From: a virus
IMG/VR virus record: IMGVR_UViG_3300020201_000084
Location: 1-28,411 of that record
Reading direction: 5' to 3' (one strand)
Length of the DNA: 28,411 nucleotides
The notes beneath the pieces are model-generated. The model was not told the origin of the DNA and ran no database searches. It was given only the letters and a program-made list of their open reading frames with translations. Each line of letters opens with the position of its first letter. Positions within the stretch are counted from its first letter, which is position 1. The translations under genes were made by a program, and so were the position numbers. This document shows, piece by piece, positions 2,461 to 22,970 of the stretch.

Positions 2461-2574
2461 GCAAAAAGGCTACAGGTAGCTACAAAATATCGACTTACTT
2501 GACATAATTCTTAGCAGCATATAGAAAAAATTGACACGTAAAAGAGTCCGAAACCCTTTTGCGAGCGCAACTAA
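2461..2574 (+). promoter_or_regulatory. Intergenic region with a sigma70-like promoter candidate
   Basis: This AT-rich gap separates terminase from the gpW-like gene. TTGACA at 2499-2504 matches the sigma70 -35 consensus exactly. TATAGA at 2520-2525 could be a -10 box, but the 15-base spacer is shorter than the usual 17. A second TTGACA at 2531-2536 has no convincing partner. It is the largest gap within the head genes, so a secondary promoter is plausible but unproven. Confidence 0.3.
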
Positions 2575-2814
2575 ATGTCAATTGAGCAGCTAGTAGAAAG
2601 TGGAAAGGCACTCGGCCCGAGTTCCATTCGTACTGCCGATGTTTCATTTACGTTCCGAAGTGTTTCGGAAATTCTGCTTGCCAATCAAGCCCTGAATGCC
2701 CCACGTAGTTTCTGTGACCTGGTGTTCTGCAATGTCATAAGTGACCCACACCCACCACATAGCCACGGTAGGGCTAACCTAGGTCCTCAAGGCCATGCTT
2801 GGGGTGTATGGTGA
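2575..2814 (+). CDS. gpW-like head-tail connector protein (putative)
   Basis: A 79-residue protein encoded between terminase and portal, exactly where lambda encodes gpW (68 residues), the connector protein that stabilises the filled head and lets the tail-joining protein bind. The pattern agrees with gpW: a short N-terminal helix, then a beta-like stretch VSFTFRSVSEILLANQAL (residues 23-40) that resembles the gpW pattern of an EFT-type strand followed by SVSDL and a second helix. The tail (residues 49-79) is rich in His, Pro and Gly and differs from gpW. The gene overlaps the portal start (ATG at 2808) by seven bases, which suggests translational coupling. Its ribosome binding site is weak. 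The call rests on synteny plus a short visible similarity; no catalytic motif is expected. Confidence 0.6.
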   Translation: MSIEQLVESGKALGPSSIRTADVSFTFRSVSEILLANQALNAPRSFCDLVFCNVISDPHPPHSHGRANLGPQGHAWGVW

Positions 2815-4316
2815 AGCTAAAAGATTGGTTCATGAGCTGGTTGCCAACTAAGGTCGAGTTTCGTGAAAGCGGTCTTGGCTTTACCGGGGATACCGTACCA
2901 TCTGTTCAAGTCTTCGATTGCTTTACAGGTCCCGAAACATCGGATGGCCAGCTACGCGAAGAGTTGCAACAGAAGAGCGCTGACAACGATTGTAAAGCCC
3001 CTTACTATGCCAAGGCGTTGAACCTCCATGCGTCTATGGTAGTTGGCTCTGGCCCAATGGTCGTAATTACCGATGACAGGATCACACCAGAAGATCGAAA
3101 GCATCTAAAAAAGCGATGGCGAAGATGGACGCAGCGATCTGGTTTTGTACGGACATTGAGATCCTTCCGTAGGGCTGGCATGAAGGTAGGAGAAGGCCTT
3201 GCCTACTTTGTCACTGCTGAAAGGCAGATGGACCCAGTTAAGCTAAAGCTTGTTGATGTGTCGGCAACACGTTTGCAGACCCCGTTGGATCTGGTCAATG
3301 AGGCGAGTATTAACGACGGTATCCAATACAGTGAGGATGGCCAGCCGACAAAGTTCTTTATCAGTGGTGGCCCTAACTCAATCGACGAACACGATGCAAG
3401 CAGAGTAGCCTATTGGTTCTGTGGTGTCTTGGAAGAACAAAAGAGAGGGATACCTGAGCTACATACTACGCTTGATTGGTTTCCCAAGATAACAGCCTTC
3501 CAAAATGCAGTTATCAGTAGCATGGAACTATTTGCACGAATGCCCCTAGCTCTTGAAGTAGATGCGGCATGGATCGGAGACGATGACGATAGCAGATCAG
3601 GTTGCCCGCTCCCAACTGATAAACCATTCAAGATGCCAGCTAACGGCTTGATGGTCCCAACACTGCCAAAGGGAACAAGCATCAGTAAGATGCAAGGTGA
3701 GGCCCCTGGGACAGATTCAAAAGATGCGCTGAAATCAATTGTCACTATGGCCGTAAGCCCGATTTTTATGCCCGCCATTTTGATTATGGGCGATGCGGGG
3801 GACGCTTCATTCAGTGCCGCAAATATCGATTGGGAACCTTACCTCAATAAAATTTACGAGGACAGGGCAGAGCTAGAGCCAACATGCTCTTTGTCGTTTG
3901 AGCAATGGCTTTTAGAGGGTGCGAAGATACCAGGGTACTTTGGCCCATCGGTTGTTGCGGCTGTCCGTGAGGATTTAGCTAGGAGTAGGGACCTGGCTAA
4001 GAGTGAGGACGAAGATAAAGGCGATTTGGACATAGACCACGAATGGCGATGGGGCCGCGTGAAATGCCATATCGACCCAAATAAAGAAGCGAGCGCACGA
4101 CAGAAAGATTTGGAATCGTGCGCGATGACACTTCCCGAGGTCTACGAGTCGAGAAACGAGGACTTAGATGAGCGGGTTGAGCAAGCATCGGAGTTCTACA
4201 ACGTTAGTCCAGACGAATACCGAGCCATGTTATGGTCAAAATTAAAAGTACAACCAACAACCCCAAGTAAAGGTAGCAACAATGCCAAGCAAGCTAGCAG
4301 CAAAAGCAGCACATAG
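2808..4316 (+). CDS. Phage portal protein, lambda GpB family
   Basis: The portal is the dodecameric ring at the unique head vertex through which DNA enters and leaves and where the terminase and tail dock. The product, about 502 residues, has features of the lambda portal family: an early segment on resident residues and internal repeats of YYAKALNLHASMVVGSG type, WRRWTQRSGFVRTLRSFRRA, then GEGLAYFVTAE, then KLKLVDVSATRLQTP, and DGIQYSEDGQPTKFFI. These follow the usual order W..W, GE-x-F, L-x-DRLxTP, GI-x-D-GxP. The last 35 bases overlap the protease/capsid gene. I prefer ATG at 2808; a TTG nine bases upstream is possible. The acidic and lysine-rich C-terminus (residues about 400-430) is low complexity. 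The call is supported by its place between the gpW-like gene and the protease. Confidence 0.85.
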   Translation: MVKLKDWFMSWLPTKVEFRESGLGFTGDTVPSVQVFDCFTGPETSDGQLREELQQKSADNDCKAPYYAKALNLHASMVVGSGPMVVITDDRITPEDRKHLKKRWRRWTQRSGFVRTLRSFRRAGMKVGEGLAYFVTAERQMDPVKLKLVDVSATRLQTPLDLVNEASINDGIQYSEDGQPTKFFISGGPNSIDEHDASRVAYWFCGVLEEQKRGIPELHTTLDWFPKITAFQNAVISSMELFARMPLALEVDAAWIGDDDDSRSGCPLPTDKPFKMPANGLMVPTLPKGTSISKMQGEAPGTDSKDALKSIVTMAVSPIFMPAILIMGDAGDASFSAANIDWEPYLNKIYEDRAELEPTCSLSFEQWLLEGAKIPGYFGPSVVAAVREDLARSRDLAKSEDEDKGDLDIDHEWRWGRVKCHIDPNKEASARQKDLESCAMTLPEVYESRNEDLDERVEQASEFYNVSPDEYRAMLWSKLKVQPTTPSKGSNNAKQASSKSST

Positions 4317-6480
4317 AGCTAAGCAAGTGAGCTTGCGTGAGACTGCCCTGAATTCCATCAAGGAAATCTTTTTGGATGCATCGGACGGAACCACGTTTGA
4401 ACTAAGTGATGCACCGGGGGAAGGGGCTACGAAGCTAAAGCAATTTGATTCCCTTGCCTACACTGGTAAAGTTGCTACTAAATGGGGCCAAAGGATTCTC
4501 ATTGATGTTTCAGGTCTGACATTTAAGTCCGTTGTGCCTCTTATTGCAGATCATGAGCCATCTTTGCGTATTGGGCATGGCAAGGTAATGATAACAGCGG
4601 ATCACCATGTTCGAATTAAAGGCCCCGTATCGAGTACAAGTCAGACAGCGATGGATTTCGTAAATGACTCAGCCAATGGCTTCCCTTTTGAGGCTAGCGT
4701 TGGCGTGAAATCTACTCGAACACGGTACATACCTGAAAAACAAAAAGTACACGTCAATGGTGCCGATCATCTTGGCCCGTTAGTGTTGATTGAAGCTGGA
4801 ATTTTGCGGGAGGTCAGTGTCACAACGTTGGGCGCTGACGATGAAACGTCCGCAACTACTCTTAACGAAGGAAAGAAACGTAAGATGGCCATCAAAGAAA
4901 TCGACGAAACAAAATTCGCTGAGTTCTTGGAATCGCATTTTGAATTTTCTGTTGAGGACTTTGAAGGCCTTTCGGAAAAGTCACAATCCAAGATCGAGCA
5001 TGCCTTTGAAGCTTCCGAGGAAGCTTCGAAGAACAAGAAACCGGATCAAAAGACGGAGCTTGAAGATAAGGCCAAGAAGGAAGCTGAAAAGGTCAAAAAA
5101 GACCTTGGCGGCAACGACTTTTTGCGCTGGTCAGAGGTTATGGAACTTACTGATGGTAACATGAAACTTGCTCGACAAGCCATCGATAAGGGCTTGAGCG
5201 ACGAAGAAGTTGTGGATGCAATGGAACTTGCAAAACTGCGAGAGGGGCGCGGCAAAGTGCCAACTGGCAAGGTCAAAGAAGACGGGCGCACCCATGCTTT
5301 GCAAGTGGCTGAATGCCGCTTGATGAGCGGAATCCGCCTGAACGTCAATGATGATGAAATTATCCTTGCCGATGAAAAGCTTTTGGAAAAGCGATACTCC
5401 AAGGCAGTCATTGACGAGGCCTTGAACTTGGGCGAAATCGGCTTCAAGGAAATGGTTGCTCTGCATGCGAACATGGCACCACAAGCAAAAGGCAAAACCT
5501 TTACTTGCTATGGTGAGCCTGACACGCGCGAAGCAATTCAGTTCTTGGGCGAGGTCAACGTATCGCTTAATGCGACTATGCCAAACTCCTTTGCTGGGGT
5601 TGCGCAAGTTGCGATGATGCAGCATCTACAACTTGCTCCACAATGTACCCCGAGCATGTTCCGAACGGGTACGAACCCTGACTTGCGACCTGTTGGAAGA
5701 ATGCGGATCAACGGCGGCGAGCGATGGCCAAAACTTGCTCCAGATGGCAAGCTTGTCCATTTGGCATTTGGTCAAGAGGAAATTTGGCAAACATGGCTGG
5801 AGACTCGCGGCGGAATCATCGTTTTCAAAGATGATGACATCATCAATGATAACATGGGCGTTATTAACGACATGATTGCCATGATGGTTGAGATGGGCGA
5901 TACGGAAGACTATGAATTCTTCCAGCACTTCTACAACTCGACCGACGATTTCTACGACGCTACTAATACGCTTAGTGGTGCCGATGCGGTCTTGAGCTAT
6001 GAAAACGTCCAGTTGGCATGGGACCGAATGAAGACCCGTACTATCCAAAAAGGCCTGGAAACTCGCCGTCTACGGATGGGCCAAAAGTTCTGGTTGCTGG
6101 TTGGCATTGGCCTTGAGAAAGAGGCATGGAAGTTGTTCAGCGATGATTCTTACTGCCAAGACTGTGACAGCAACAGTGAGAAGAATTGGTGGCGAGGTAA
6201 GATCGACGTGAAGGTATGCGACGACATGGACAACGATACCATCTATGGTGATTTAGCTGGTCTTCCAGCTTGGGGCCTAGTCACTCAGAATCGCAATTTC
6301 AGCCCTTACGAGCTGACAACATTGCGAGGCATGAAACAACCCCGAGTTGAACGGTTCGCGTTGCCTGGGGATACCCTTGGAATGGGCATGCGGTTCTACA
6401 AGCGTTCCCGCGTCAACCCAATGGACAAGTACGGTATCATCCGCGCTATCCCCGATCTGACTGAATCAAGTAGCAGTTAG
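4282..6480 (+). CDS. Prohead protease-scaffold-major capsid fusion protein
   Basis: A single 732-residue protein seems to carry three functions that lambda encodes as C, Nu3 and E. Residues about 50-190 resemble the prohead protease (S78/U35): VVPLIADHEP with probable catalytic His91, FPFEASVGV with probable Ser139, and REVSVTTLGAD with Glu177. Residues about 205-335 are highly charged and helical (KKEAEKVKKD), like a scaffold. From about 345 to the end it resembles the Mu gpT-type major capsid protein; the clearest signs are a GE-x-W-P-x-L region and DDDIINDNMGVINDM at about residues 518-532, near the family's IINDDLGAF signature. The gene starts within the portal gene; AAAGG at 4269-4273 is a good ribosome binding site for ATG 4282. 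An in-frame ATG at 4885 (MAIKEIDETK) may give a protease-free form. Cleavage between scaffold and capsid is expected but its site is not visible. Confidence 0.82.
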   Translation: MPSKLAAKAAHRAKQVSLRETALNSIKEIFLDASDGTTFELSDAPGEGATKLKQFDSLAYTGKVATKWGQRILIDVSGLTFKSVVPLIADHEPSLRIGHGKVMITADHHVRIKGPVSSTSQTAMDFVNDSANGFPFEASVGVKSTRTRYIPEKQKVHVNGADHLGPLVLIEAGILREVSVTTLGADDETSATTLNEGKKRKMAIKEIDETKFAEFLESHFEFSVEDFEGLSEKSQSKIEHAFEASEEASKNKKPDQKTELEDKAKKEAEKVKKDLGGNDFLRWSEVMELTDGNMKLARQAIDKGLSDEEVVDAMELAKLREGRGKVPTGKVKEDGRTHALQVAECRLMSGIRLNVNDDEIILADEKLLEKRYSKAVIDEALNLGEIGFKEMVALHANMAPQAKGKTFTCYGEPDTREAIQFLGEVNVSLNATMPNSFAGVAQVAMMQHLQLAPQCTPSMFRTGTNPDLRPVGRMRINGGERWPKLAPDGKLVHLAFGQEEIWQTWLETRGGIIVFKDDDIINDNMGVINDMIAMMVEMGDTEDYEFFQHFYNSTDDFYDATNTLSGADAVLSYENVQLAWDRMKTRTIQKGLETRRLRMGQKFWLLVGIGLEKEAWKLFSDDSYCQDCDSNSEKNWWRGKIDVKVCDDMDNDTIYGDLAGLPAWGLVTQNRNFSPYELTTLRGMKQPRVERFALPGDTLGMGMRFYKRSRVNPMDKYGIIRAIPDLTESSSS

Positions 6481-6541
6481 GCCAACTTCCGACGAGTCAA
6501 TTTTTACCAATTCAACTAATTAGAAAAGAGAGATAAGAACT
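6481..6541 (+). promoter_or_regulatory. Short intergenic leader with ribosome binding site
   Basis: These 61 bases follow the capsid gene. AAGAGAG lies a few bases upstream of ATG 6542 and is the likely ribosome binding site for the next gene. No convincing terminator hairpin is present. Confidence 0.4.
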
Positions 6542-7078
6542 ATGGCAACACCTTGGCGAGCAACTTTGCGGGGTTACTGCGAAGCGTTTACTTACATTGA
6601 ACCCCTGCCTAACTTTTGCACTTGGCGTTCACCAGACAACTTCATTTGGCAGAACACAACTGATTTCGTCATCCCTGGCGGTGGCGTGGTCGTTCTTCTG
6701 GACCCTGATACCGATTTGCCGATTCGGCTAGGCGTTACCGATCCAGGTTGCGCGATTTGCCCCGGTGATCTTGGAAGGCTTAACCTCCGTGGCGTTGTCG
6801 AAGTGAAACTCGTTTCGCCTTGGGTTACTGACATCATCCAGGGGGCCAAGATTTACCTTGGCAGGCAAGCCGATGGATCGTGGCGAGCATCCAACGTAGC
6901 ACCTGCTATTGGGTTCCTACTTGGTCGAGCGATCATCAACTACGAAAAGTCTTGGTTGGCCGGGGAGTCCGCTAAAGCAGGTTCCCAGAACGTCCAAGTT
7001 CAGTTTGAGGCTATCGAGCCTATCGAGCTGTTTGGTGTGGTTACTGGAGAGCTAGACAACGACGTCGATGTGCCTTAA
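6542..7078 (+). CDS. Probable capsid decoration (cement) protein
   Basis: A 178-residue protein directly behind the capsid gene, the usual place of a head decoration protein. Its composition is beta-rich, with Gly/Val-rich strands and no membrane segment or signal peptide. The second half (GAKIYLGRQADGSWRASNV followed by IGFLLGRAI) recalls the DUF2190-type cement fold, in which a small beta-barrel carries a terminal G-x-A motif; this similarity is from memory and weak. Four or five Cys residues occur in the first half. The ATG is preceded by an AAGAGAG element. If not decoration, it could be another head-completion protein. Function is therefore inferred mainly from position. Confidence 0.5.
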   Translation: MATPWRATLRGYCEAFTYIEPLPNFCTWRSPDNFIWQNTTDFVIPGGGVVVLLDPDTDLPIRLGVTDPGCAICPGDLGRLNLRGVVEVKLVSPWVTDIIQGAKIYLGRQADGSWRASNVAPAIGFLLGRAIINYEKSWLAGESAKAGSQNVQVQFEAIEPIELFGVVTGELDNDVDVP

Positions 7079-7086
7079 GGGACAAG

Positions 7087-7638
7087 ATGAATTCCAATCT
7101 ATTCAGTCGAGGGCGCAACACCAGGGCAATGGGGTCATCGGTTCAGATATTATCTGTTCCGGCAGCCCCAGTGGTTCCTGTTGCGCCTACTGACTGGATG
7201 GCGTATGGATGCGGATTTCTTAGGAGTGCCGTACAAGACTTCTCGGAAACTGACGTTTGGGTCATCTGTTCTAGGGACTGCGATACTATCGAGTTTGCTA
7301 GGCCAATAAAGCTTGTCCTTGGGGCAACTTTTTCTAGCTTGGATAGTGTGTACACTACCAGCTTAACGGATGGACCACGAGAATTTTTGGTGCGTCCCGA
7401 AGAATGGAAAAGGCATACCGAGCTAGGCGAATACCCTAAAAGAGGGCTATTCGTTTTTGTGGTTTGTACAAACGAATGGGTCGAGCTTATGCCAGATGGT
7501 GGATTGCCAGTTTATGAAATTGCCGATCAGTATTCGACCATTTGGAAGTTGAGGGGCAAGGTTGTCAAACCTTGTTTCGTTTGGTCTATTGGGTATGTTG
7601 TTGGGCCGTCTATAGTTGGTCAGTCTACAGTAGGATAG
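7087..7638 (+). CDS. Hypothetical protein, head/fibre junction
   Basis: I do not recognise this 183-residue protein. It lies eight bases after the probable decoration gene and five bases before the large fibre gene, so it is co-transcribed with both. The AAGGGACAAG segment upstream of ATG 7087 is a good ribosome binding site. The N-terminal 35 residues are rich in Pro, Val and Ala, like a linker. The remainder is a compact beta-rich domain with repeated Trp and Cys residues (WVICSRDCD, FVVCTNEWVEL, KPCFVWSIGYVVG). There is no signal peptide. It could be a head-completion or head-tail adaptor protein by position, or a fibre-attachment protein; neither is supported by a motif. Confidence 0.55.
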   Translation: MNSNLFSRGRNTRAMGSSVQILSVPAAPVVPVAPTDWMAYGCGFLRSAVQDFSETDVWVICSRDCDTIEFARPIKLVLGATFSSLDSVYTTSLTDGPREFLVRPEEWKRHTELGEYPKRGLFVFVVCTNEWVELMPDGGLPVYEIADQYSTIWKLRGKVVKPCFVWSIGYVVGPSIVGQSTVG

Positions 7639-7642
7639 AAGC

Positions 7643-10600
7643 ATGACGGCACGCACAACGCTGAAAACTATTTTTGAAACTGGTGACCCGCTTACCCAGG
7701 AATCTTTCTATGCGTTGATCGAAGGGTTAGCTACTACAGAAGAGGTACAAGCAGTTGGCGGTGTACTTAACCCTGCATCTCGGATACCGCTTAAAGCGCT
7801 TTTTGAAACCGGTGACGCTCTTACCCAAGCAACTTTTTATACGTTGATTGAGGGGCTAGCCACTACAGAAGAAATTCCCGCAACTGGACCGGTAGGGCCA
7901 ATTGGACCAATTGGACCAATAGGGCCAATTGGACCAACTGGCCCCCCTGGTTCTGATGCTAATGCTACGACAGATGCGTCAGATTTGGTTACCGGTACCT
8001 TGGATGATGCTAGGTTATCATCGAACGTGGTGTTGACGGCGGAGTTACTGGCCTCGCTGCAATCCGTTTCTGCCTCAAGCTATGGCGTTGTAGCTGACGG
8101 CATCGTTGACGATACCGTCGCTTTTGGGCTGGCCTTAGACGCTGCAATTGCTGCCGGTGTGGGGTTGGTTCTGCCATCGAACGGCACTATTAAACTAACA
8201 TCAATGATGACTCGGGTTCTCAGCGAAGACCTGACGATTTTCGGCAACGGATGCACGCTAAAAAAGAACGCAGGCATCCTATACTTTTCAGCTTTTGAGT
8301 ACGCGAATCTAACGCTGGCAGTTGCAGTCGCTTACAAAGCAACGTCGATTACTGTTGCTAGTGCGAGTGCTGTTTCTGTCGGGGACATTATTCGACTGCT
8401 CACGCCTAGCACCTATGCTGAAATAGCATGGAACTATAGGACTGGCGAGACGTTCAAAATCACGAAAATTACCGGCAACGTATTGACGTTGGATTCCGAA
8501 ATCAATCTTGGATTCAATCCAGCCGTTGAAACTGTCACAGTGGAGCATTGGAAAAACGTATCGCTCAACATCGAGAATCTAAAATTTGCAACAAAGGATC
8601 TTGTGGCCGAAGGTGCCGATGCGTTTCTGTATTGTCGCGGATTGACAGGCGAGATCACCAATACGCAATACACAGGGGCAAAGATTTCGGAATCGGTTGC
8701 GATCAATCTAAATGCTTGCGTAGGGATGCAGGTGCGAGACTTGCGATTAGTCGCAACTTGGTACGGAGTCGGAATCGATTACTGCCGTCACACGCTCGTG
8801 GACGGAGTATCGGGATACGACAACACGGCACATCCTGTCGTTCCTGCCGCACTGTCCTCACACACCTATATCCGTGGTGTGCACATGAGCGGTTCAAATG
8901 CGAACATCGACGCTCACCCATGCTTTTACACGACCTACGAAGACGTTGAGTCGGCAGAGTCGAACTACCCGAATGCACGTTGTTGGGGAATCAAATTCAT
9001 CAACGTCACGATCACTAACACGCTGAATCCCGACAACGTAGCCGATTTCATGCCGGGGCAGGGTGCTTCGAACCTAGTGAGATTCCCGCATCTTGCGACA
9101 GACTTCGACATCGAGTTTGTAAATTTCAAGATGGTATCATTGGTCGGTGCGAGCATCGATAACACGTTGCTGATTGCGCATAAATGCCGACGATTAATTG
9201 TGACCGGCTGTATCCTCCCAGGCATTCGATGTAGCAATGCAATTGAAAGCGTTCAGATAACAAATAGCGTCCTGGGGCAATTGCGGTTTCACGATGATGC
9301 GACAGCCCAAATCAGCAATGTTGTTTTCGACTACAACCTTTGCCAGTACGCGGCAGCCAACTTCAAAGGTCCAATATTTTCCGTCAATGGAAAAACTCTA
9401 AGCCTGAGTAATGTAACCTATGTCAATTGGCCGACGGACTTCTTTCTGTTCTCCTACCTATTTAACTCAGGTACGCTTTTAGTTTGTGATTGCGATTTCG
9501 GCACGCTGGCTGATTTGTGCGGAAACAATGACGCTACAGGCACGATTGCCGACTACCGATTTGTTAACTGCAAAATGGTTCTTGCCGCGTCCAGTCAGGT
9601 AGCTATCGACCTAGCAAAAGTTGTAAGCTGCATTGGCTCAATTGGCGGTGTTTCGCTCAGCAGTTCAGCAACCAGGCGACTCAGTGCAGGTATTGCCGCA
9701 ACAGACACGCTTTTACTTGCTGGGATGCGATTCGATAACCCATCTGTTGGGTCTAACGCAACGCCATCAATCTCTACGATTGATTTTACGGTCGGAAATA
9801 ATGACTACAAAGCCGGAGCTATCCGAGCCATAGCTAAGATAGCTAATAACCAATACACCGACCTAACCCTGAGCGGGATGAATGCCGCAACTGGGGCCTA
9901 CGACGACACCCTTACGTTGATGGGTATCGGCACGACAAAAGTGCTATCTTCGACGACGGCAAGAGCCTCGATCAACGTCCCTCACGGCGTTGCACCGACA
10001 AGTCCAGTCAATGGAGACACATGGAGCACGACAGCGGGTTTGTTCTTTCGAGCCAACGGAACGACACAAGGACCGTTCAGTGTAAGTTCGACCATCGTTG
10101 GAATCACCGGCACGATGATTGAGTTCAACACGGCATGCACGAATGGGGATTTCCTCTTCGTCGGTGACGTGACAACGAATGCAACTCACACCGGCGACGC
10201 AACCGGAGCAACCGCACTGACGCTTGCCACGGTCAACAGCAACGTAGGTGCATTCGGATCGTCCACGCAATCGCTGACGTTAACAGCCAATGCAAAGGGC
10301 TTAGTCACTGCGGTAAGTGCTCAGACTGTCACGCCAGCCGTTGGATCGATTACAGGTTTGGGCGCTGGCGTTGCAACCGCACTCGCAGCCGCACCGACTG
10401 GTTCGGGCGGGATAATGCTCGCTGCTAGTCCGACGACTACGGGGACGCTGACAGCAGCAATAATCAATGCCAGCGGACCAGTTGCAGTAGCATCCGGCAC
10501 GCTAACAGGTAGTTCGACCCCAGCGATTAACGTTACCCAAACTTGGAATAATGCTGCAACTACGTTTGTTGGTTTGCTCAGTAACATCACCGACACGGCA

Positions 10601-11581
10601 AGCAATGCAGCTAGCTTGCTCATGGATTTGCAAGTTGGTGGATCAAGTAGATTTCATGTAAGAAAAGATGGTGGTATTAGGGTAACTGGACCAAGCGGAA
10701 CAAGTTTCTTTGAAGCTACAGATGCTTTTGGAACCGTGAAAATTCAATACGGGGGAATTGTCGCTAATTCGTATTATACAGGTGGAATAATATATGCAGC
10801 CTCATACTCAATTGGAATAAATGCTGATACTTTCATAACTCGTGAAGGCAATGGAATAGTAGCACAACGCAACGCTGCCAACGCACAAACATCCCGTCTC
10901 TACGGCACGTGGACAGACGCTTCAAATTACCGTCGTTTGTTTATGTCCTCAACGACAGCGGGTGCATTTACGCTAGGTGTTGAAGGGCTAGGCACTGGGG
11001 CAAGCGGTAATACGCTGACGATCGCGAATGCACTGACGATAAGCGGCGACCTGACCGCAACAGGCAACATCTCAGCAGCAGCCATCACCGCAAGCGGAGC
11101 ATTCAATCTAGCCCCAATCACAAAAGCAGCACTACTAGCACTCACTCCCACAGCGGCAACTGGTGGCCGATGGCGAGTCACTGATTCCGTACCTGCACAA
11201 CGTAACGTGTTTCCCGACGGCACGGTTTGGAGGTACTCAGACAACAATAAGGACGTGAATCTAGCCGACGAAGTAACCTACACACCAGGAGGCACAACGC
11301 AAACGATACCCCTCAACGATGGTCCTACACAGACACTCCTTTTATCGAGTGCAACCGGGACAGTAACAACAACTTTGACGATACCAAGCCAACCCGGCTC
11401 AGGCCGAATCATTGTTCGACAAGGAGCAACGCCTCGACTCGTCACGCTTGCGGTGAGTAGCGGCACATTGGTTTTGCTGGGTGCAGCACTTCCGCTTGAT
11501 GCGGCTGATACAATGAGAGTTTATTCGTGGACTTACGATGGGACTCGTACGATTGTTGGACCATCGGAGGTATCGGTATAA
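7643..11581 (+). CDS. Large tail fibre / spike with collagen-like and beta-helix regions
   Basis: This 1312-residue protein is probably a trimeric receptor-binding fibre. It begins with two tandem copies of a 30-residue unit (residues 6-35 and 49-78, sharing FETGD and LIEGLATTEE). Eight collagen-like Gly-Pro-X triplets follow (82-105), which may zip a trimer. Residues about 146-187 hold the typical start of a pectate-lyase-like right-handed beta-helix: YGVVADGIVDDTVAF then a strand ending in VLPSNGTI. The helix runs to about residue 700. Further fibre modules follow, including one near TSPVNGDTWSTTAG, a threonine/alanine-rich repeat zone, and a module near VAQRNAANAQTSRLYG seen in many phage fibres. 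No intramolecular chaperone (S74) domain is visible at the C-terminus. No enzyme activity can be claimed: beta-helices may bind or cleave polysaccharide. Its place between head and tail genes is unusual. Confidence 0.8.
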   Translation: MTARTTLKTIFETGDPLTQESFYALIEGLATTEEVQAVGGVLNPASRIPLKALFETGDALTQATFYTLIEGLATTEEIPATGPVGPIGPIGPIGPIGPTGPPGSDANATTDASDLVTGTLDDARLSSNVVLTAELLASLQSVSASSYGVVADGIVDDTVAFGLALDAAIAAGVGLVLPSNGTIKLTSMMTRVLSEDLTIFGNGCTLKKNAGILYFSAFEYANLTLAVAVAYKATSITVASASAVSVGDIIRLLTPSTYAEIAWNYRTGETFKITKITGNVLTLDSEINLGFNPAVETVTVEHWKNVSLNIENLKFATKDLVAEGADAFLYCRGLTGEITNTQYTGAKISESVAINLNACVGMQVRDLRLVATWYGVGIDYCRHTLVDGVSGYDNTAHPVVPAALSSHTYIRGVHMSGSNANIDAHPCFYTTYEDVESAESNYPNARCWGIKFINVTITNTLNPDNVADFMPGQGASNLVRFPHLATDFDIEFVNFKMVSLVGASIDNTLLIAHKCRRLIVTGCILPGIRCSNAIESVQITNSVLGQLRFHDDATAQISNVVFDYNLCQYAAANFKGPIFSVNGKTLSLSNVTYVNWPTDFFLFSYLFNSGTLLVCDCDFGTLADLCGNNDATGTIADYRFVNCKMVLAASSQVAIDLAKVVSCIGSIGGVSLSSSATRRLSAGIAATDTLLLAGMRFDNPSVGSNATPSISTIDFTVGNNDYKAGAIRAIAKIANNQYTDLTLSGMNAATGAYDDTLTLMGIGTTKVLSSTTARASINVPHGVAPTSPVNGDTWSTTAGLFFRANGTTQGPFSVSSTIVGITGTMIEFNTACTNGDFLFVGDVTTNATHTGDATGATALTLATVNSNVGAFGSSTQSLTLTANAKGLVTAVSAQTVTPAVGSITGLGAGVATALAAAPTGSGGIMLAASPTTTGTLTAAIINASGPVAVASGTLTGSSTPAINVTQTWNNAATTFVGLLSNITDTASNAASLLMDLQVGGSSRFHVRKDGGIRVTGPSGTSFFEATDAFGTVKIQYGGIVANSYYTGGIIYAASYSIGINADTFITREGNGIVAQRNAANAQTSRLYGTWTDASNYRRLFMSSTTAGAFTLGVEGLGTGASGNTLTIANALTISGDLTATGNISAAAITASGAFNLAPITKAALLALTPTAATGGRWRVTDSVPAQRNVFPDGTVWRYSDNNKDVNLADEVTYTPGGTTQTIPLNDGPTQTLLLSSATGTVTTTLTIPSQPGSGRIIVRQGATPRLVTLAVSSGTLVLLGAALPLDAADTMRVYSWTYDGTRTIVGPSEVSV
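7658..7876 (+). repeat. Tandem 30-residue repeat in the fibre N-terminus
   Basis: Two copies of a 90-base coding unit, at 7658-7747 and 7787-7876, are separated by 39 bases. The proteins share FETGD, LTQ, FY and LIEGLATTEE with few changes. This suggests duplication of a small virion-attachment or fold-nucleating domain. The collagen-like segment (7886-7957) follows directly, built largely from nine-base units encoding Gly-Pro-Ile. Confidence 0.8.
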
Positions 11582-11626
11582 TGATTAACGGTAGAATCTC
11601 CTTACACATGACTAACGGATAATAAA

Positions 11627-12127
11627 ATGCTTGCGAATTTAATCCAAAACATCCCTGGCTGGGAAACAAAAACAGTCGACGAGATCACATCTGCTCTCAA
11701 CTCGCAATCGATTAAGGTAGAGGATCACGAACCATACACCTGGGCAGGTGTTGCGTTGCTTGTCGGTCCAGTTGCGACCGAGACGCTACGTGAGACTCTC
11801 GACGCTCAAGGACTCGGATGGGTTGTCTACCAACTCGGTGGAGCGGGCATTCGTCTTAACAATCCGTTAGTGCAACAAGCACTTCTGGGGTTTGCTCAGG
11901 CTGGCGTGTTGGGAGCGTCGGACCTCGCGGCCAAGGGCATGCATTACGTCTCGCCAGCCATGCAACATGGGCTGACAGTCACGCCAGAGACGGTTGCAAC
12001 GGCCTTGGAGTCACTCACGCTTGAGACAACGAAATCAGTGATGCTCCAAGCCGGTGCAAATCGGTGGAACGCATTTGTTGACGCTATTGATGTCTGGGAC
12101 GGCTCAGGAAGTGGGCCGGTACTCTAA
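11627..12127 (+). CDS. Hypothetical protein in the fibre module
   Basis: A 166-residue protein that I do not recognise. It is predicted to be mainly helical, rich in Ala, Leu and Gly, with no signal peptide and no clear membrane segment; the central part (LGWVVYQLGGAGIRLNNPLVQQALLGFAQ, positions about 65-93) is hydrophobic. It follows the large fibre gene after 45 bases and ends in a TAATG overlap with the second beta-helix gene, so the two are likely translationally coupled. A fibre chaperone or adaptor is a possible role from context, but no motif supports it. The ribosome binding site ahead of ATG 11627 is weak. Confidence 0.55.
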   Translation: MLANLIQNIPGWETKTVDEITSALNSQSIKVEDHEPYTWAGVALLVGPVATETLRETLDAQGLGWVVYQLGGAGIRLNNPLVQQALLGFAQAGVLGASDLAAKGMHYVSPAMQHGLTVTPETVATALESLTLETTKSVMLQAGANRWNAFVDAIDVWDGSGSGPVL

Positions 12128-13266
12128 TGGCGATTGTCACACGATACTTTTCGACAACAGGAGCGGGAGCAGCCAACGGCACAACGTGGGCCGATCGGGC
12201 TGCATTGTTTTCGTCCGGCAATTGGTCAACTGTCATCACAGGATTCGCGTTTAATGCGTCCGATTCGTTGGAAGCACGAATTCAAGGAGGGCTTACCTAC
12301 ACTTGCAGCCAATCGTTAGCTAGTGGTTTGTTCGCTAATCCACCTTCGGTGTCCAATCTACTCGTGCTGCACGGATGCAATTCGTCCGGTGATTTGTTGT
12401 TGCCGCCTGATGGTGCCTGGGTTTCCTCACAGCCTGCGTTTTCAACAGCAACCCTGCCAGTGATCGCAACGACGACGAATATCATTACGTTTAACCTTGC
12501 AAATCTGTACGCGAGATTGATTGGTCTAACTGCCTCGGGTGCCGGTGTAGCCAGCATCACAGCTTCCGGTAATTTCGACTGGATCAATATCATCTGCACA
12601 TCGAATAGTGCAAGTGCGACAGGCTTCCTTACGCCGACAATGCTACTGAATTCATGCGTACTATTTTCTGGCACAGGGTTCGAGGCGGGCATAGTTTCGC
12701 CATCGGGACTAGTCAATAACGTCAGGATAGATGGGACGGCAGCCACATCATCCGGCACACGCAGAGGGGCAAATACTACGAGTAGCGGACATGTTTTTAG
12801 CCGAATAACATCCATAGGATGTGCTGGTGGTGGGGCATTTATGGCGACGGGATCTGCAACACGATCAGGCCACTATTCCCGAAGCCTGATGATTAACTGC
12901 GGTGCATTCGGATTTCAGGGCAGTCCTACAGCGTCCCAGACTGTATTTCACACCGTCGCAAATTCGGTAATCGTAAATTGCGTCACGGGCATAGACGGCA
13001 ACACAAACGCACGCTTCATACTCGCTGGCAACCGATTGCGGGACAACTCTTCAGCGAACTATGCGACGACCGGCAATTCTCTGACATCGGTAGACGACAC
13101 ATCATCTGGAACTAACGCAAACGAGTTTGTCGACGCGGCGTCCGGTGACTATCGCATAAAATTAGGGTCTGCAATTTGGGGCAAAGGCATCGGGCCAGGC
13201 GATCAGCCAGCAAGCAGCGGTGGACTCATGCTCCCACGACCAATGAACGGAGGCTACTCAGCATAA
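12127..13266 (+). CDS. Second beta-helix fibre / spike protein
   Basis: A 379-residue protein made mostly of short Ser/Thr/Asn-rich strands, the look of a parallel right-handed beta-helix. The start, MAIVTRYFSTTGAGAANGTTW, is typical of beta-helix proteins in which the first strand is followed by a DGTTWA-type turn. Near the C-terminus, ASGDYRIKLGSAIWGKGIG (about residues 334-352) matches the closing strand pattern of parallel beta-helix repeats (N/D-G-D-F/Y-R-L...S-x-a-I). It starts by TAATG overlap with the preceding gene and ends by another with the next gene. It probably acts with the large fibre in host recognition. It may be an enzyme or only a binding protein; no catalytic set could be identified. 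Confidence 0.7.
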   Translation: MAIVTRYFSTTGAGAANGTTWADRAALFSSGNWSTVITGFAFNASDSLEARIQGGLTYTCSQSLASGLFANPPSVSNLLVLHGCNSSGDLLLPPDGAWVSSQPAFSTATLPVIATTTNIITFNLANLYARLIGLTASGAGVASITASGNFDWINIICTSNSASATGFLTPTMLLNSCVLFSGTGFEAGIVSPSGLVNNVRIDGTAATSSGTRRGANTTSSGHVFSRITSIGCAGGGAFMATGSATRSGHYSRSLMINCGAFGFQGSPTASQTVFHTVANSVIVNCVTGIDGNTNARFILAGNRLRDNSSANYATTGNSLTSVDDTSSGTNANEFVDAASGDYRIKLGSAIWGKGIGPGDQPASSGGLMLPRPMNGGYSA

Positions 13267-16859: not shown

Positions 16860-17162
16860 ATGCTGCCTATAGAAGCTACTAACCCCGAAGAACTGCTAAC
16901 CTCACTCATTCAATCTTCTGACGACATACCTTGTGTCAGGGTTGACGTGTTGGTTGCAGCTCTGGGGCTAGACGCTGCGAGAAGGTTGACGATCATTCAG
17001 ACTAACGCATTTATCGATCGATCTAGGGCAATCGAAATGATGATGTTGAATCGAGCAGTGGGCATGCTATCAGAGGTAGACCGGTTATCCCTTAATCCAA
17101 TTCCAACTGAGGTAGAAGAGTCCAATGCCAACGTTAGTACATTTGAAACGAAGCGTACTTAA
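16860..17162 (+). CDS. Small protein between tube and chaperone genes
   Basis: A helical protein of about 100 residues (MLPIEATNPEELLTSLIQSSDDIPCVRVDVLVAAL, positions 1-35) with acidic N- and C-termini and no membrane segment. A TTG at 16836 would add eight residues, but ATG 16860 is more conventional. The last 38 bases overlap the next gene. It sits between the tail tube and the tape measure, where gpG-like chaperones lie, so a role in tail assembly is likely. I cannot assign a family. The next gene has its own GAGGT ribosome binding site, so the overlap is not needed for a frameshift. Confidence 0.5.
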   Translation: MLPIEATNPEELLTSLIQSSDDIPCVRVDVLVAALGLDAARRLTIIQTNAFIDRSRAIEMMMLNRAVGMLSEVDRLSLNPIPTEVEESNANVSTFETKRT

Positions 17163-17661
17163 CACTGAGGGAGAAATCGTAGAGGAAAGCAAAAAGATGC
17201 TTCTGAATTTGACCGCGGGCTTAGCCATTCGGTTGAAGGCAGTAGGGGCGAACATTTTTGCGTCTCTCGATAGCGAGGAAACCCGAAACTGGATCACTTC
17301 GATAATCCAAGATCGGGAGTCGTTGGTCAATATAGCTCATGTCGTTTGGCCCGACCCTGAGATCGACGAATGGCTTACCGCGGATTCTCTCGACAATCTG
17401 AGGGAGGCCTTTTTGATTGAACTTCAAAATTTTTCCTACCAGTCTTCCCCGAAGACATTGCAATCGTTGATAGTGGAGAGTCGGAGCACTCTAGCGGTGA
17501 TGGACAAGGAGTTGAGCGACCGGATTCCCGAGGCGATGGACATACTTCGCAAGAAGGCACTGAGCGACATTCCAGAGGGGGAAAACCTAGCCAAGGCTCT
17601 GCTAGAAGACTACGAACAGTATCAGCGAGGGAAGTTTGGGGGGAGCTATTCAAAGCCATAG
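17125..17661 (+). CDS. Tail assembly chaperone, G-like short form
   Basis: A 178-residue acidic, helical protein (MPTLVHLKRSVLNTEGEIVE; later LVNIAHVVWPDPEIDEWLT and ALLEDYEQYQRG). Its position between tube and tape measure genes, and the presence of an open -1 frame running to the next gene, mark it as the G-like short form of a tail assembly chaperone pair, which in lambda loads the tape measure and recruits tube protein. GAGGT at 17109-17113 is 11 bases ahead of ATG 17125, so it starts independently of the gene it overlaps. The stop at 17659-17661 falls only 15 bases after a six-G run, as expected if a few ribosomes slip and read on. Family membership is inferred from context. Confidence 0.6.
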   Translation: MPTLVHLKRSVLNTEGEIVEESKKMLLNLTAGLAIRLKAVGANIFASLDSEETRNWITSIIQDRESLVNIAHVVWPDPEIDEWLTADSLDNLREAFLIELQNFSYQSSPKTLQSLIVESRSTLAVMDKELSDRIPEAMDILRKKALSDIPEGENLAKALLEDYEQYQRGKFGGSYSKP

Positions 17662-17933
17662 CCGTTCTAGGTGGTTGGTCTTTAGAACTTACCTATTACC
17701 AAATCACAGAATTGCATCGGGGCTGGCGGCAAGAGCAGTTCGACCGGGAATCATTTATCGTGTTCAGCATCGTGCAAGCGTCCGGGGGAGGCAAAGGCGA
17801 CTTTCAAAAAATAAATCCGTACCGTGACAACAGCGAAGCGGTAGCACAATCCAAGGCAGAGCAAAACAAGATCATGGAAGCCCAAGCACAAGCCGAGTTC
17901 GGTACCAGTAATAGCGATTGGGGACTGTTCTAA
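17125..17933 (+). CDS. Tail assembly chaperone long form by -1 frameshift (GT-like)
   Basis: Read without a frameshift, the 178-residue protein stops at 17661. The -1 frame, however, is open through that stop and up to 17933, one base before the tape measure start. A -1 slip after GGG at 17641-17643 gives a protein of about 269 residues: the first 173 of the short form, then ELFKAIAVLGGWSLELTYYQ and later ELHRGWRQEQFDRESFIV. This extension has the sequence look of the C-terminal region of chaperone long forms (W..L..yyqi.el..GwR). The 73-residue reading from a TTG at 17712 has no ribosome binding site, so the extension is best explained as a shifted extension. The frameshift is inferred; only proteomics or reporter data could prove it. 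Confidence 0.6.
17627..17662 (+). promoter_or_regulatory. Candidate -1 ribosomal frameshift site
   Basis: Six G residues at 17638-17643 lie in the short form's frame as GGG GGG, after TTT and before A. A P-site tRNA on the second GGG can slip back one base and pair perfectly. GAGGGAAG at 17627-17634 is Shine-Dalgarno-like a few bases upstream, as in other stimulated sites. A weak hairpin, GCTAT with ATAGC (17645-17649 and 17658-17662), follows. The heptamer TGGGGGG is not a perfect X-XXY-YYZ site, since T occupies the first position. Confidence 0.5.
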
Positions 17934-20417
17934 ATGTCAACTGCAAGTAACACTCGCGCCGGCGGTGCTTTCATCGAGGTCTTTATCAAGGACCGCGTTC
18001 AAGCAGGAATAAAGACGATCAACAGGCAGCTCCTAAGTTTTGCAGCGAAGGCAGGATTAGCCGGGGCTGCTGTTGGGGCTGCTGGGTTTGCGATCTTAAG
18101 GCCTCTGGTTAGCGCCGGCAAAGAGTTCGCTGAATTCGATAGACGTCTTAGGGCCGCGGCTGCTGCATCGGAGCTAACGTCTGGTCAGATGGAACAGCTA
18201 GGCGAGGAAATTAAAAAGGTAAGCCAACGGAGCGGTACGGTTCTCATAGATTTGGCCGATGAGACTGTTGAGCTAGCCCGAGCACTTGGCAAAGTTGACC
18301 CAAGCGAGTTGGCGAACCTTGCTGACGTTATCGCCCAATTGTCAAAGGCCTCTGGTGATACGCTTGGAATTTCTAGGACGGGTTTACTTTCTACGATTGG
18401 TGCTTTTGGGTTAAAGAACAGCCAAGCCAAAGATGTTGCCAACTTGCTTATCAAAGGTGCCAATTCATCACAAGCAAGTTTGAGTGACTTTGTTTTTACT
18501 CTTAAGACTTTGGCCCCCGTATCAAAGGCGGCTGGCATAAGCCTACAGACCACAATTGCTTTGGCAGCGGGCTTGTCGACCATCGGTATAAAAGGCGAAG
18601 AGGCAGGAACACAATTACGACGACTTGCAATCGATGTAACAGCCAACACGAAGGAGCTTGAAAAATCTTTTGGTATCATTATACCAAAGGGATCAACCTT
18701 CCTAAACGTTCTGGAGCTACTGAGCGAAGCAACCGCCGGGGACAATGTTTCGACTAAGGCCGATAAGTTCAACAAGGCATTTGGGCTGCTTGGCATTACC
18801 TCAGCGCTGGGGATTGGTACGACGGCAGAACAGATCAAGGAATTCCAAAAATCGTTCGTTGATGTATCTGGGGAGCTGCAAAAGCAATTCGATAAAATAC
18901 AAGGTGGCCTAGGTGGTGGGTTCGATCGTATGTCGTCGTCCCTTCAAGTTCTAAGGGTTACCGTTGGGGGCGCTCTAGAGGACCTGTTTGGCCGTTTTGC
19001 TGATGGTGTTCAAGCTATTAACGCGGTTATCTCACCATTCATAAAAAACAACAAAGAGGCTGTCCAGGTAATTGCTTTGGTAGGAGTCGCAGCGATTGTG
19101 ACTAGCGTATCTTTGTTGTTAATGAGCGGGGCCGCAGTTGCACTTAGCTTAGTGCTTGGCGCATTAAGTTCAATTTTACTTGTCCTTCAAACACCACTTG
19201 GCCTAATTGCCGCGGTGGTTCTGTCCAACATTGTGTTCTTTGGATTACTGGGAGCAGCGTTTCTCACTTTTACGAAGACCGGCAATACTCTAGCTAGGTC
19301 GTTAGGGTCAGGAATAATCTACGTCTTTCGTCAATTGAAAAAGACTGCCAAAGAGGTCCTTGCAGTTGTGACGTTGACAATGGAAGGCATAAGCCTTTCT
19401 TTTCAAAATGGTAATTTAGAGGCGGCTGCTACGATCGCATTCCAAGGCATTAAGATTGCCGGGATAATTGCGTTCAGAGACTTAAGTAAAGTTGCGGACG
19501 CCTTCTTTACCCGAGTACAGTATGGATTGTTAGGCCTTGGGGCAGGGCTTGGACTTAACGCTAAGCTATTAGGAGGGCTGCTAGGTGGTTTGGTTGGTGG
19601 TGGTAGTGCTACACCAGCACTTAGTAAGTCGCTCATTGAGTCCCAAAAGGAGCTTCAAGAATTGGTCGACGAGCAGCGGAAAAAGCTAAAGCTTGCGGAC
19701 CCGAAACTTGGCGATAGTCTTGGCAAAGCTATTGACGAGGCTGTTGGCGGAATGCCAAATGGAATTGAAAAAGGAATTCAAGGGATGGTATCCTCCAGCT
19801 TTGATTCGACGAGAGGGCTGATTAAGGGCCAAAAGAATTCGTCGGCAGAGCAGTTGAAATCGATTGCGGGGAGCGCTAGAGAGACGGCGGACGTCCTACG
19901 GAATGGAATTGTCACGGTAAAGCTTTACAATGCAAGAGTTGCTAATGCGGCGGCTGCTTCCAAAGCAAAATTAGATGCTCCAATTGGTGAAGATGGATTA
20001 CCGGTCAACGAAAGCAGGAATACTCTAACCCCCGAGCGAGAGCGTAGGCTACGAGAGGCGGTAGCCCGTAGAAGAAAACTTGCTCAAGAGAGAGCTGATT
20101 TGCTCGACATAAATTTGGAGCAGAAATCATTGGATAGAGCGAACCTGCCGAGCAAAGCAGATATCGAGGCTAAACGGAAAGCGGACGCAGAAAAGCTTAA
20201 TAAAGATAGGGACGAAAGGTTCAATGCGAATCGACCATTTAACAAGAAAGCTAACGTCGATGACTTAGAAAGAGAGCCAAAACGCGAGATACTTAGTAAA
20301 GAAGAATTGCAAGCGAAGCTTATAAAAGAGGCACTTGAGGCAGATGCCTTAGAGTTGAAAAAGCAAACAAGCTTACTTCAAATAATTGCCGACAAAGAGG
20401 GAGCGGTATTTGTATGA
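17934..20417 (+). CDS. Tail tape measure protein (TP901 type)
   Basis: An 827-residue protein that sets tail length and carries DNA-ejection segments. Residues about 65-310 match the TP901/PhageMin_Tail core: EFDRRLRAAAAASELTSGQM, LADETVELARALG, AQLSKASGDTLGISRTGLL, and AAGLSTIGIKGEEAGTQLRR. Residues 377-447 hold several hydrophobic segments (VIALVGVAAIVTSVSLLLM and similar), the usual membrane-interacting part. The C-terminal third is coiled-coil and charged (about 680-827). The start ATG at 17934 follows the frameshift-extended chaperone by zero bases. The stop overlaps the next gene in an ATGA. Length 827 suggests a tail of roughly 120-130 nm if the usual 0.15 nm per residue rule held, which is an estimate only. 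Confidence 0.85.
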   Translation: MSTASNTRAGGAFIEVFIKDRVQAGIKTINRQLLSFAAKAGLAGAAVGAAGFAILRPLVSAGKEFAEFDRRLRAAAAASELTSGQMEQLGEEIKKVSQRSGTVLIDLADETVELARALGKVDPSELANLADVIAQLSKASGDTLGISRTGLLSTIGAFGLKNSQAKDVANLLIKGANSSQASLSDFVFTLKTLAPVSKAAGISLQTTIALAAGLSTIGIKGEEAGTQLRRLAIDVTANTKELEKSFGIIIPKGSTFLNVLELLSEATAGDNVSTKADKFNKAFGLLGITSALGIGTTAEQIKEFQKSFVDVSGELQKQFDKIQGGLGGGFDRMSSSLQVLRVTVGGALEDLFGRFADGVQAINAVISPFIKNNKEAVQVIALVGVAAIVTSVSLLLMSGAAVALSLVLGALSSILLVLQTPLGLIAAVVLSNIVFFGLLGAAFLTFTKTGNTLARSLGSGIIYVFRQLKKTAKEVLAVVTLTMEGISLSFQNGNLEAAATIAFQGIKIAGIIAFRDLSKVADAFFTRVQYGLLGLGAGLGLNAKLLGGLLGGLVGGGSATPALSKSLIESQKELQELVDEQRKKLKLADPKLGDSLGKAIDEAVGGMPNGIEKGIQGMVSSSFDSTRGLIKGQKNSSAEQLKSIAGSARETADVLRNGIVTVKLYNARVANAAAASKAKLDAPIGEDGLPVNESRNTLTPERERRLREAVARRRKLAQERADLLDINLEQKSLDRANLPSKADIEAKRKADAEKLNKDRDERFNANRPFNKKANVDDLEREPKREILSKEELQAKLIKEALEADALELKKQTSLLQIIADKEGAVFV

Positions 20418-21702: not shown

Positions 21703-22509
21703 ATGCCAAACAACTTTAAGCCCCCAACAAAAGGTCAGCCTATAGCGGAGTTTATAGAAAAGCAGTCCCTTTGGCAGACCATCCATGATGCTCTCGACCG
21801 AGTTACCAAACTTGAGCAGAAGATAAAAAACATCCAGGCACCAACTCTAAAACTGGACAAGCCTAACCCAGTTTTACCCTGGGCTATAAATCGTACCGGG
21901 GAGGACCTTGGCAATTCTTTTTCAATTGTTGCTTATGATGAGCCTTTTGTAGAGCCTCCCGATATTGACGAGCTGGCAACTATTTATGCCCCAAGATTTT
22001 CGATGGACACGACCTATTTTGCCAAAGTGCCTGATGGCCTTTGCCGATGGGGTGTATTCAACATACCTGTTGTCGAAAACGGTTTGGCCCCGATTACGCT
22101 TCAAGGTATTGCCCATGTCCAGATAGATGTGTTGGACGAGTCCCACACAATGGCAAAAGAAGTTGTTGGCGACGTTTCTAGATTGCAATCATCTATTGAT
22201 GGCACATCGTCTTCGGCAAGGATACTCTGGAAGGAACCAGGGCTAGGCCTAAAATGGGCTTCCATTCTTTTAGGTCGTTCCGATGGAATTTACCATTACC
22301 TGTTTACACTTGAGACGAACATGAGTTATGCACTCCCAAATTTTGCTACGGCGGTGATAAAAGACATGGATAATCTTGTGGTGATTAAGACAGCTTTTGT
22401 AAGAGATCCGCAAGTAATTTTTGCTGACTTAGTAGCGGGTGACCGGGGCATTTGCATACTGCAAAATGAAAAGTTCTACATCATCCAAGCTTACCGGGAC
22501 TGCGACTAA
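21703..22509 (+). CDS. Probable tail-tip or fibre-attachment protein
   Basis: A 268-residue protein directly after the Cys-rich distal tail protein. It begins with a coiled helix (FIEKQSLWQTIHDALDRVTKLEQKIKN, residues about 18-44), then a beta-rich body with LQGIAHVQIDVLDESHTMAKEVVG and ARILWKEPGLGLKWASILLG, a pattern that I associate with phage proteins in planctomycete-type tail regions but cannot assign. No membrane segment or signal. It ends in a TAATG overlap with the poly-serine protein, so the two are coupled. It may connect the latter to the tail tip. Confidence 0.5.
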   Translation: MPNNFKPPTKGQPIAEFIEKQSLWQTIHDALDRVTKLEQKIKNIQAPTLKLDKPNPVLPWAINRTGEDLGNSFSIVAYDEPFVEPPDIDELATIYAPRFSMDTTYFAKVPDGLCRWGVFNIPVVENGLAPITLQGIAHVQIDVLDESHTMAKEVVGDVSRLQSSIDGTSSSARILWKEPGLGLKWASILLGRSDGIYHYLFTLETNMSYALPNFATAVIKDMDNLVVIKTAFVRDPQVIFADLVAGDRGICILQNEKFYIIQAYRDCD

Positions 22510-22970
22510 TGGGATGGTACCCTTTTTGTTGTTGTCCAAGCAGTTCGAGCAGTTCGAGCAGTTCGAGCAGTTCGAGCAGTTCGAGCAGTTCGAGCAACCC
22601 TAGTTCGTCATCGTCGGTCCCGAGTTCGAGCAGTTCGAGCAACCCGAGTTCGTCATCGTCGGTCCCGAGTTCGAGCAGTTCGAGCAACCCGAGTTCGTCA
22701 TCGTCGGTCCCGAGTTCGTCAGTCCCAAGTTCGTCGGTCCCAAGTTCGTCGGTCCCAAGTTCGTCAGTCCCAAGTTCATCGTCTTCAAGTCCGTTCATAC
22801 AACCAAAGTGCTGTAGCAGTAACCTTCCAGGTACCCCAGGTTTATTTGTTGGCCAAACTATTTTTGACACTTGCACGACAGGGTTCGGACCAACTACAAC
22901 TTGTACTTGCGTGTTTACATGGAACGGTACTATTTGGGAAGTAACATCGGAGGATTGCACGACTATATGA
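22509..22970 (+). CDS. Poly-serine repeat protein with Cys-rich ends
   Basis: A 153-residue protein. It starts MGWYPFCCCP, then about 85 residues of serine with periodic Asn-Pro and Val-Pro breaks, then a compact Cys-rich domain (KCCSSNLPGTPGLFVGQTIF followed by DTC, CTCVFTWNGTIWEVT and EDC). The linker is probably extended and flexible and may carry sugars, given the following genes. The C-terminal domain, about 55 residues with several Cys and a WNGTIWE strand, could be a small surface or carbohydrate-binding fold. It starts in a TAATG overlap with the previous gene and ends in an ATGA overlap with the next, supporting real translation. Low-complexity coding is confirmed by in-frame repeat periods only in multiples of three bases. 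Confidence 0.6.
   Translation: MGWYPFCCCPSSSSSSSSSSSSSSSSSSSNPSSSSSVPSSSSSSNPSSSSSVPSSSSSSNPSSSSSVPSSSVPSSSVPSSSVPSSSVPSSSSSSPFIQPKCCSSNLPGTPGLFVGQTIFDTCTTGFGPTTTCTCVFTWNGTIWEVTSEDCTTI
22539..22793 (+). repeat. Nested tandem DNA repeats encoding serine
   Basis: Three repeat classes lie end to end. First, six copies of a nine-base unit (AGC AGT TCG) at 22539-22592. Second, two full copies of a 45-base unit at 22602-22646 and 22647-22691, and a partial third at 22692-22712. Third, four copies of a 15-base unit (AGT TCG TCN GTC CCR) at 22713-22772. All lengths are multiples of three, so copy-number change alters linker length without shifting frame. Confidence 0.85.

Follow-up and report, generated by a model that had tools for sequence, protein, structure and literature searches.

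A probable mid-gene -1 frameshift for two tail assembly chaperones in an uncultured phage with relatives in Planctomycetota genomes

The tail assembly chaperone gene of the virus record IMGVR_UViG_3300020201_000084 very probably encodes two proteins, a short G-like form and a longer GT-like form, the second produced by a -1 slip of the ribosome at the heptamer A_AAT_TTT in the middle of the gene. The stretch analysed, referred to here as the window, comprises all 28,411 nucleotides presented from this record, and the features of the chaperone locus lie on its plus strand. A -1 frameshift of the kind found in lambda G/GT is well supported at this locus by the comparison of sequences, and in the window it probably takes place at A_AAT_TTT and not at the run of six G residues proposed in a preliminary description of the same DNA. 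We further consider it likely that a large family of chaperones, found in Planctomycetota genomes, in IMG/VR contigs and in the window, shifts frame in mid-gene, where the globular domain ends. The long form would then exchange the C-terminal helices of G for a linker and a T domain, and some 190-225 nt would serve two reading frames, of which the second is kept mainly free of stops. Comparison with relatives supports the -1 arrangement, the placing of the slip site and the dual-coded overlap; that slippage takes place, how efficient it is, which tRNA steps it involves and what part it plays in tail assembly are inferred.

Reading frames and gene context of the chaperone locus

The zero-frame chaperone open reading frame occupies positions 17,125-17,661, ends with TAG and would yield a G-like product of 178 amino acids. 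Its assignment as a tail assembly chaperone is based on a family profile match, the adjoining tape measure gene and the predicted fold. In the -1 frame, stops are found at 17,418 (a TGA, 17,418-17,420) and 17,931 with none between them, leaving 510 nt open (17,421-17,930), and the tape measure gene (17,934-20,417; phrog_28, E 8.6e-41) starts directly after the TAA that closes this frame, with the chaperone gene just upstream. The preliminary description, which had likened the gene to lambda G-GT, was thus right to place it before the tape measure gene, and the chaperone stop at 17,661, the -1 frame open to TAA, the G6 run at 17,638-17,643 and a Shine-Dalgarno (SD)-like element, GAGGGAAG, at 17,627-17,634 on its 5' side are all found at the positions given there.

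The open -1 frame begins well before the G run. It is already open about 216 nt 5' of the run, and an open -1 frame of that length, 72 codons, would be expected by chance in 5.9% of in-gene windows of the same genome. The only start candidate (ATG, GTG or TTG) within the open -1 stretch is a single TTG at 17,712. Between 17,433 and 17,636, where both frames are open, the codon use of the -1 frame resembles that of coding sequence (p about 0.018), as does that of the zero frame; this segment would specify the C-terminal helices of G in the zero frame and the GT linker in the -1 frame. On the 3' side of 17,637 codon usage favours the -1 frame, and this observation, together with the rank of the segment against T-domain profiles, is the ground for assigning a T-like domain to positions 17,637-17,933, closing with TAA.

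Searches of the window chaperone and its extension against Pfam, PHROG and NCBIfam gave no useful match, the extension having no direct match in Pfam. Against profiles of the family described below, no other window segment scores as well as the chaperone (E 5.6e-5 with a profile of 14 divergent members and 0.0038 with all members). The window T domain ranks second among window segments against the profile built from the 92 loci collected first (E 3.4) and first against a divergent-subset profile (E 0.027), a subset that was chosen afterwards. As judged from these profile comparisons, the window is a distant member of the family.

Relatives and a conserved probable slip site

Pattern searches of viral contigs for close relatives of the chaperone, the extension and the tape measure protein returned none. 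Relatives were instead reached through Planctomycetota genomes, identified by a 16S pattern, in which relatives of the capsid protein and of the tape measure protein were found. Many of these genomes carry, 5' of the tape measure gene, a chaperone open reading frame and a conserved -1-frame domain with LTLREL, W and DFNPY motifs. A profile of this T domain yielded 80 IMG/VR loci, and a capsid-protein profile a further 80, of which 36 have the T domain. The resulting sets of 92 and 36 loci share three records, giving 125 distinct loci, or 126 with the window; because some are near duplicates, statistics were repeated on 55 dereplicated loci. These relatives are also the sole source of the suggestion that the phage has a planctomycete host. 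Among 392 Planctomycetota genomes, the lone match to the fusion protein proposed in the preliminary description (L132) was false, being MlaD-like on inspection. Another IMG/VR record, IMGVR_UViG_3300027878_000046 (L003), has 99% protein identity to the window in the terminase and capsid genes; this near-identical contig (L002/L003, 99%) spans roughly positions 1,246-12,963 of the window only, outside the chaperone region.

With the chaperone taken as frame zero, the T domain lies in the -1 frame in 92 of the 92 loci first collected and again in all 36 of the second set, with none in the +1 frame or in frame. No slippery sequence is shared around the start of the T domain in the relatives, though single-frame codon phase changes there. 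A score for re-pairing of tRNAs one base back peaks instead about 130-145 nt 5' of the T start, at a T_TTT_TTC sequence within the chaperone motif EL.DFF. In the alignment of 126 chaperones this column holds Phe in 124, a T_TTY sequence in 118 and T_TTT_TTC in 89; elsewhere in the family genes, TTT accounts for 27 of 176 Phe codons. The T_TTY site thus stands in mid-chaperone, usually about 130-160 nt (some 45 codons) before the T domain. A canonical heptamer is present at the slip codon in 103 of 126 loci, compared with three of 126 (window included) near the T start, and the family conserves no long homopolymer that would point to transcriptional slippage.

The -1 frame downstream of the slip codon is almost free of stops. 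In the 55 dereplicated loci no -1 stop occurs in 2651 codons between slip codon and T domain, against 51 in 2706 codons upstream, and codon shuffles put the chance of all these overlaps being open near 5e-18; the counts for all loci are one in 5889 codons and 126 in 6000 codons just upstream. RNA structure in the family is strongest directly 3' of the heptamer, where its mean z is about -0.7 under a synonymous-codon null and about 0 elsewhere. SD-like 4-mers lie 12-15 nt 5' of the site in 46 of 55 loci, a frequency that may partly reflect Glu-Glu-Leu codons. A subgroup including L140, L142, L197 and L204 has the weaker site T_TTC_TGC followed by a strong hairpin, GCCCGAGG with CCTCGGGC, which may compensate for it.

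The proposed slip site of the window, A_AAT_TTT (17,427-17,433), is the sole in-phase XXXYYYZ heptamer of the chaperone gene, such heptamers occurring in this genome at 0.0039 per codon. The zero-frame codons are CAA AAT TTT TCC, with AAT and TTT encoding N102 and F103. The TTT shares the column of the family slip codon, the profile alignment running through the motif (elvdFfp in the family, ELQNFSY in the window), and F103 is the single invariant column across 27 sequences. A minority of family members, among them L153, L165, L253 and L259, have A_AAT_TTT. In the window it begins just 3' of the last -1 stop, at a distance of 6 nt, and lies 209 nt 5' of the T domain. A possible stimulatory hairpin of 6 bp (GUCUUC-CCC-GAAGAC; 17,442-17,456) is found 8 nt 3' of the heptamer. 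It has a z of -2.3 against synonymous-codon versions and ranks in roughly the top 9% of 25-nt windows by stability, while the fold of the whole 67 nt 3' of the heptamer is no more stable than that of shuffled sequences. An SD-like element at the family's spacing is absent from the window.

The G6 run and other explanations for the T-like domain

The preliminary description had proposed the same type of fusion by a slip at the G6 run, had advised that the run and both frames be compared in related phages, and had accepted that homologues lacking the run would tell against it. On that comparison the GT-type fusion with a T-like extension holds, the -1 arrangement being found in 125 of 125 relatives, while the G run as its slip site is not supported: at least six Gs near the T start are found in just four of them (L218, L229, L243 and L249) and are missing from the other 121. 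The zero-frame codons at the run are TTT GGG GGG AGC, a non-canonical T_GGG_GGG phase, and slippage here, either on that heptamer or by a P-site tRNA-Gly slip on G_GGG while AGC occupies the A site, would give a fusion of the T domain to 173 residues of G. The position has its attractions, in that the run sits exactly where single-frame coding passes from the zero to the -1 frame and a tRNA in the P site would re-pair perfectly on G_GGG. Relatives without any G run show the same switch of codon phase where the T domain starts, and a slip at G6 would leave unexplained both the open, coding-like -1 frame from 17,421 and the conserved T_TTY. We therefore regard G6 as a very unlikely site for the fusion, and the original placement of the slip there as probably wrong. 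If slippage takes place at A_AAT_TTT, a slipped ribosome would reach the run already in the -1 frame, reading TGG GGG GAG, although some further slippage could occur at the run itself.

That the T-like domain is a separate protein, translated from the TTG at 17,712 or by reinitiation, is less probable again. This TTG is in frame, and two prophages (L145 and L150) have a T-domain ATG overlapping the chaperone stop (ACATGA). Initiation at 17,712 would leave out the first part of the domain, this TTG has no evident SD, and 113 of 126 loci (window included) have no ATG, GTG or TTG at all between slip codon and T domain. Even L145 and L150 retain T_TTT_TTC and an open -1 overlap, and in these prophages T may be made both ways, from its own ATG and by frameshifting. 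The weakest explanation, that an assembly error removed one G from a single continuous reading frame, is hardly credible; a seventh G would make the two frames continuous in this single metagenome-derived contig, for which no second copy of the region was found, but all relatives have the -1 arrangement, an in-frame fusion occurs in none of 125, and well 5' of the run the -1 frame is already open, with coding-like codon use.

Proposed products of the locus and comparison with known systems

With slippage at A_AAT_TTT, most ribosomes would read 17,125-17,661 to give the 178-aa G-like protein, while a minority would slip back one base at the heptamer, with the Asn and Phe tRNAs re-pairing on AAA and TTT. 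The hairpin 8 nt downstream would perhaps help this slip. Slipped ribosomes would continue in the -1 frame to 17,930, and the computed long product for a slip at 17,433 has 103 + 166 = 269 aa. This GT-like form would consist of the globular residues 1-103, a low-complexity linker and the T-like domain, the linker coming from DNA that also codes for the C-terminal helices of G. The peptide spanning the junction depends upon where slippage occurs, being EAFLIELQNFFLPVFPEDIAIVDSGESEHSSGDGQGVERPDSR for 17,433 and GKFGGELFK, the peptide named in the preliminary description, for G6. On the lambda model, the task of the T domain would be to bring tube subunits to a tape measure protein coated with chaperone.

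The predicted fold of the unshifted protein (pLDDT 87.8) is globular to residue 103, where a helix ends, and has a long helix from residue 109; on this model the slip would fall at a probable domain boundary. Fold searches against PDB and BFVD gave no significant match, with a few tail assembly chaperones among the non-significant viral matches. The chaperone family has no specific annotation in the libraries searched. One of its chaperones matches Pfam PF21822 (Phage_TAC_15) below cut-off, at E 0.11, and the window chaperone does not match this entry. Family T domains match Pfam PF06223 (Phage_tail_T) at E 0.0005 and 0.007, below the curated cut-off, and one such domain found no match among 50,697 annotated phage records.

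The -1 frameshift that gives gpG and gpGT in phage lambda has long been known (PMC5009743). The present locus resembles it in its order, just before the tape measure gene, in having a short chaperone and a -1 extended form, and in the weak match of the family T domain to Phage_tail_T. It would differ in geometry. In the usual lambda-type arrangement, which is not a strict requirement, the slip lies near the 3' end of the gene and GT holds almost all of G, whereas here the slip would fall in mid-chaperone, 225 nt before the stop, and of G the long form would keep just residues 1-103. Both frames would then be read over about 190-225 nt, and the slip sequence would be T_TTY or A_AAT_TTT. The tail assembly chaperones of SEA-PHAGES and of Xu et al. 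likewise have a -1 join to a second domain, a slippery heptamer and downstream structure (PMC10885494). In those phages the zero-frame stop follows the slip site at mean distances of 26 and 36 nt (PMC10885494), against a family median of 192 nt here, although theirs are averages and single phages with long overlaps may exist. A literature search for tail frameshifts in planctomycete prophages found none.

These observations correct the point at which such genes are joined: a search for a slippery run close to the stop would settle on the wrong site and predict the wrong fusion, as appears to have happened here. They also provide a clear statistical signature for frameshifts in uncultured phages, namely a stop-free -1 overlap together with a near-invariant Phe encoded as T_TTY, and make it possible to test whether a long form of the lambda type requires all of G or its globular domain alone.

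Several other genes of the window were noted. Positions 4,282-6,480 encode a probable fusion of prohead protease and major capsid protein (NF045541, E 2.6e-18, below cut-off). A 1312-aa fibre-like open reading frame (7,643-11,581) occupies an unusual place, with the head genes on one side and those for the tail tube and chaperone on the other. A short protein encoded at 22,509-22,970 consists largely of serine runs (PSSSSS repeats), and near the end of the contig (27,025-28,002) there is a subtilisin-like protease gene, whose best NCBIfam match, below cut-off, is mycosin.
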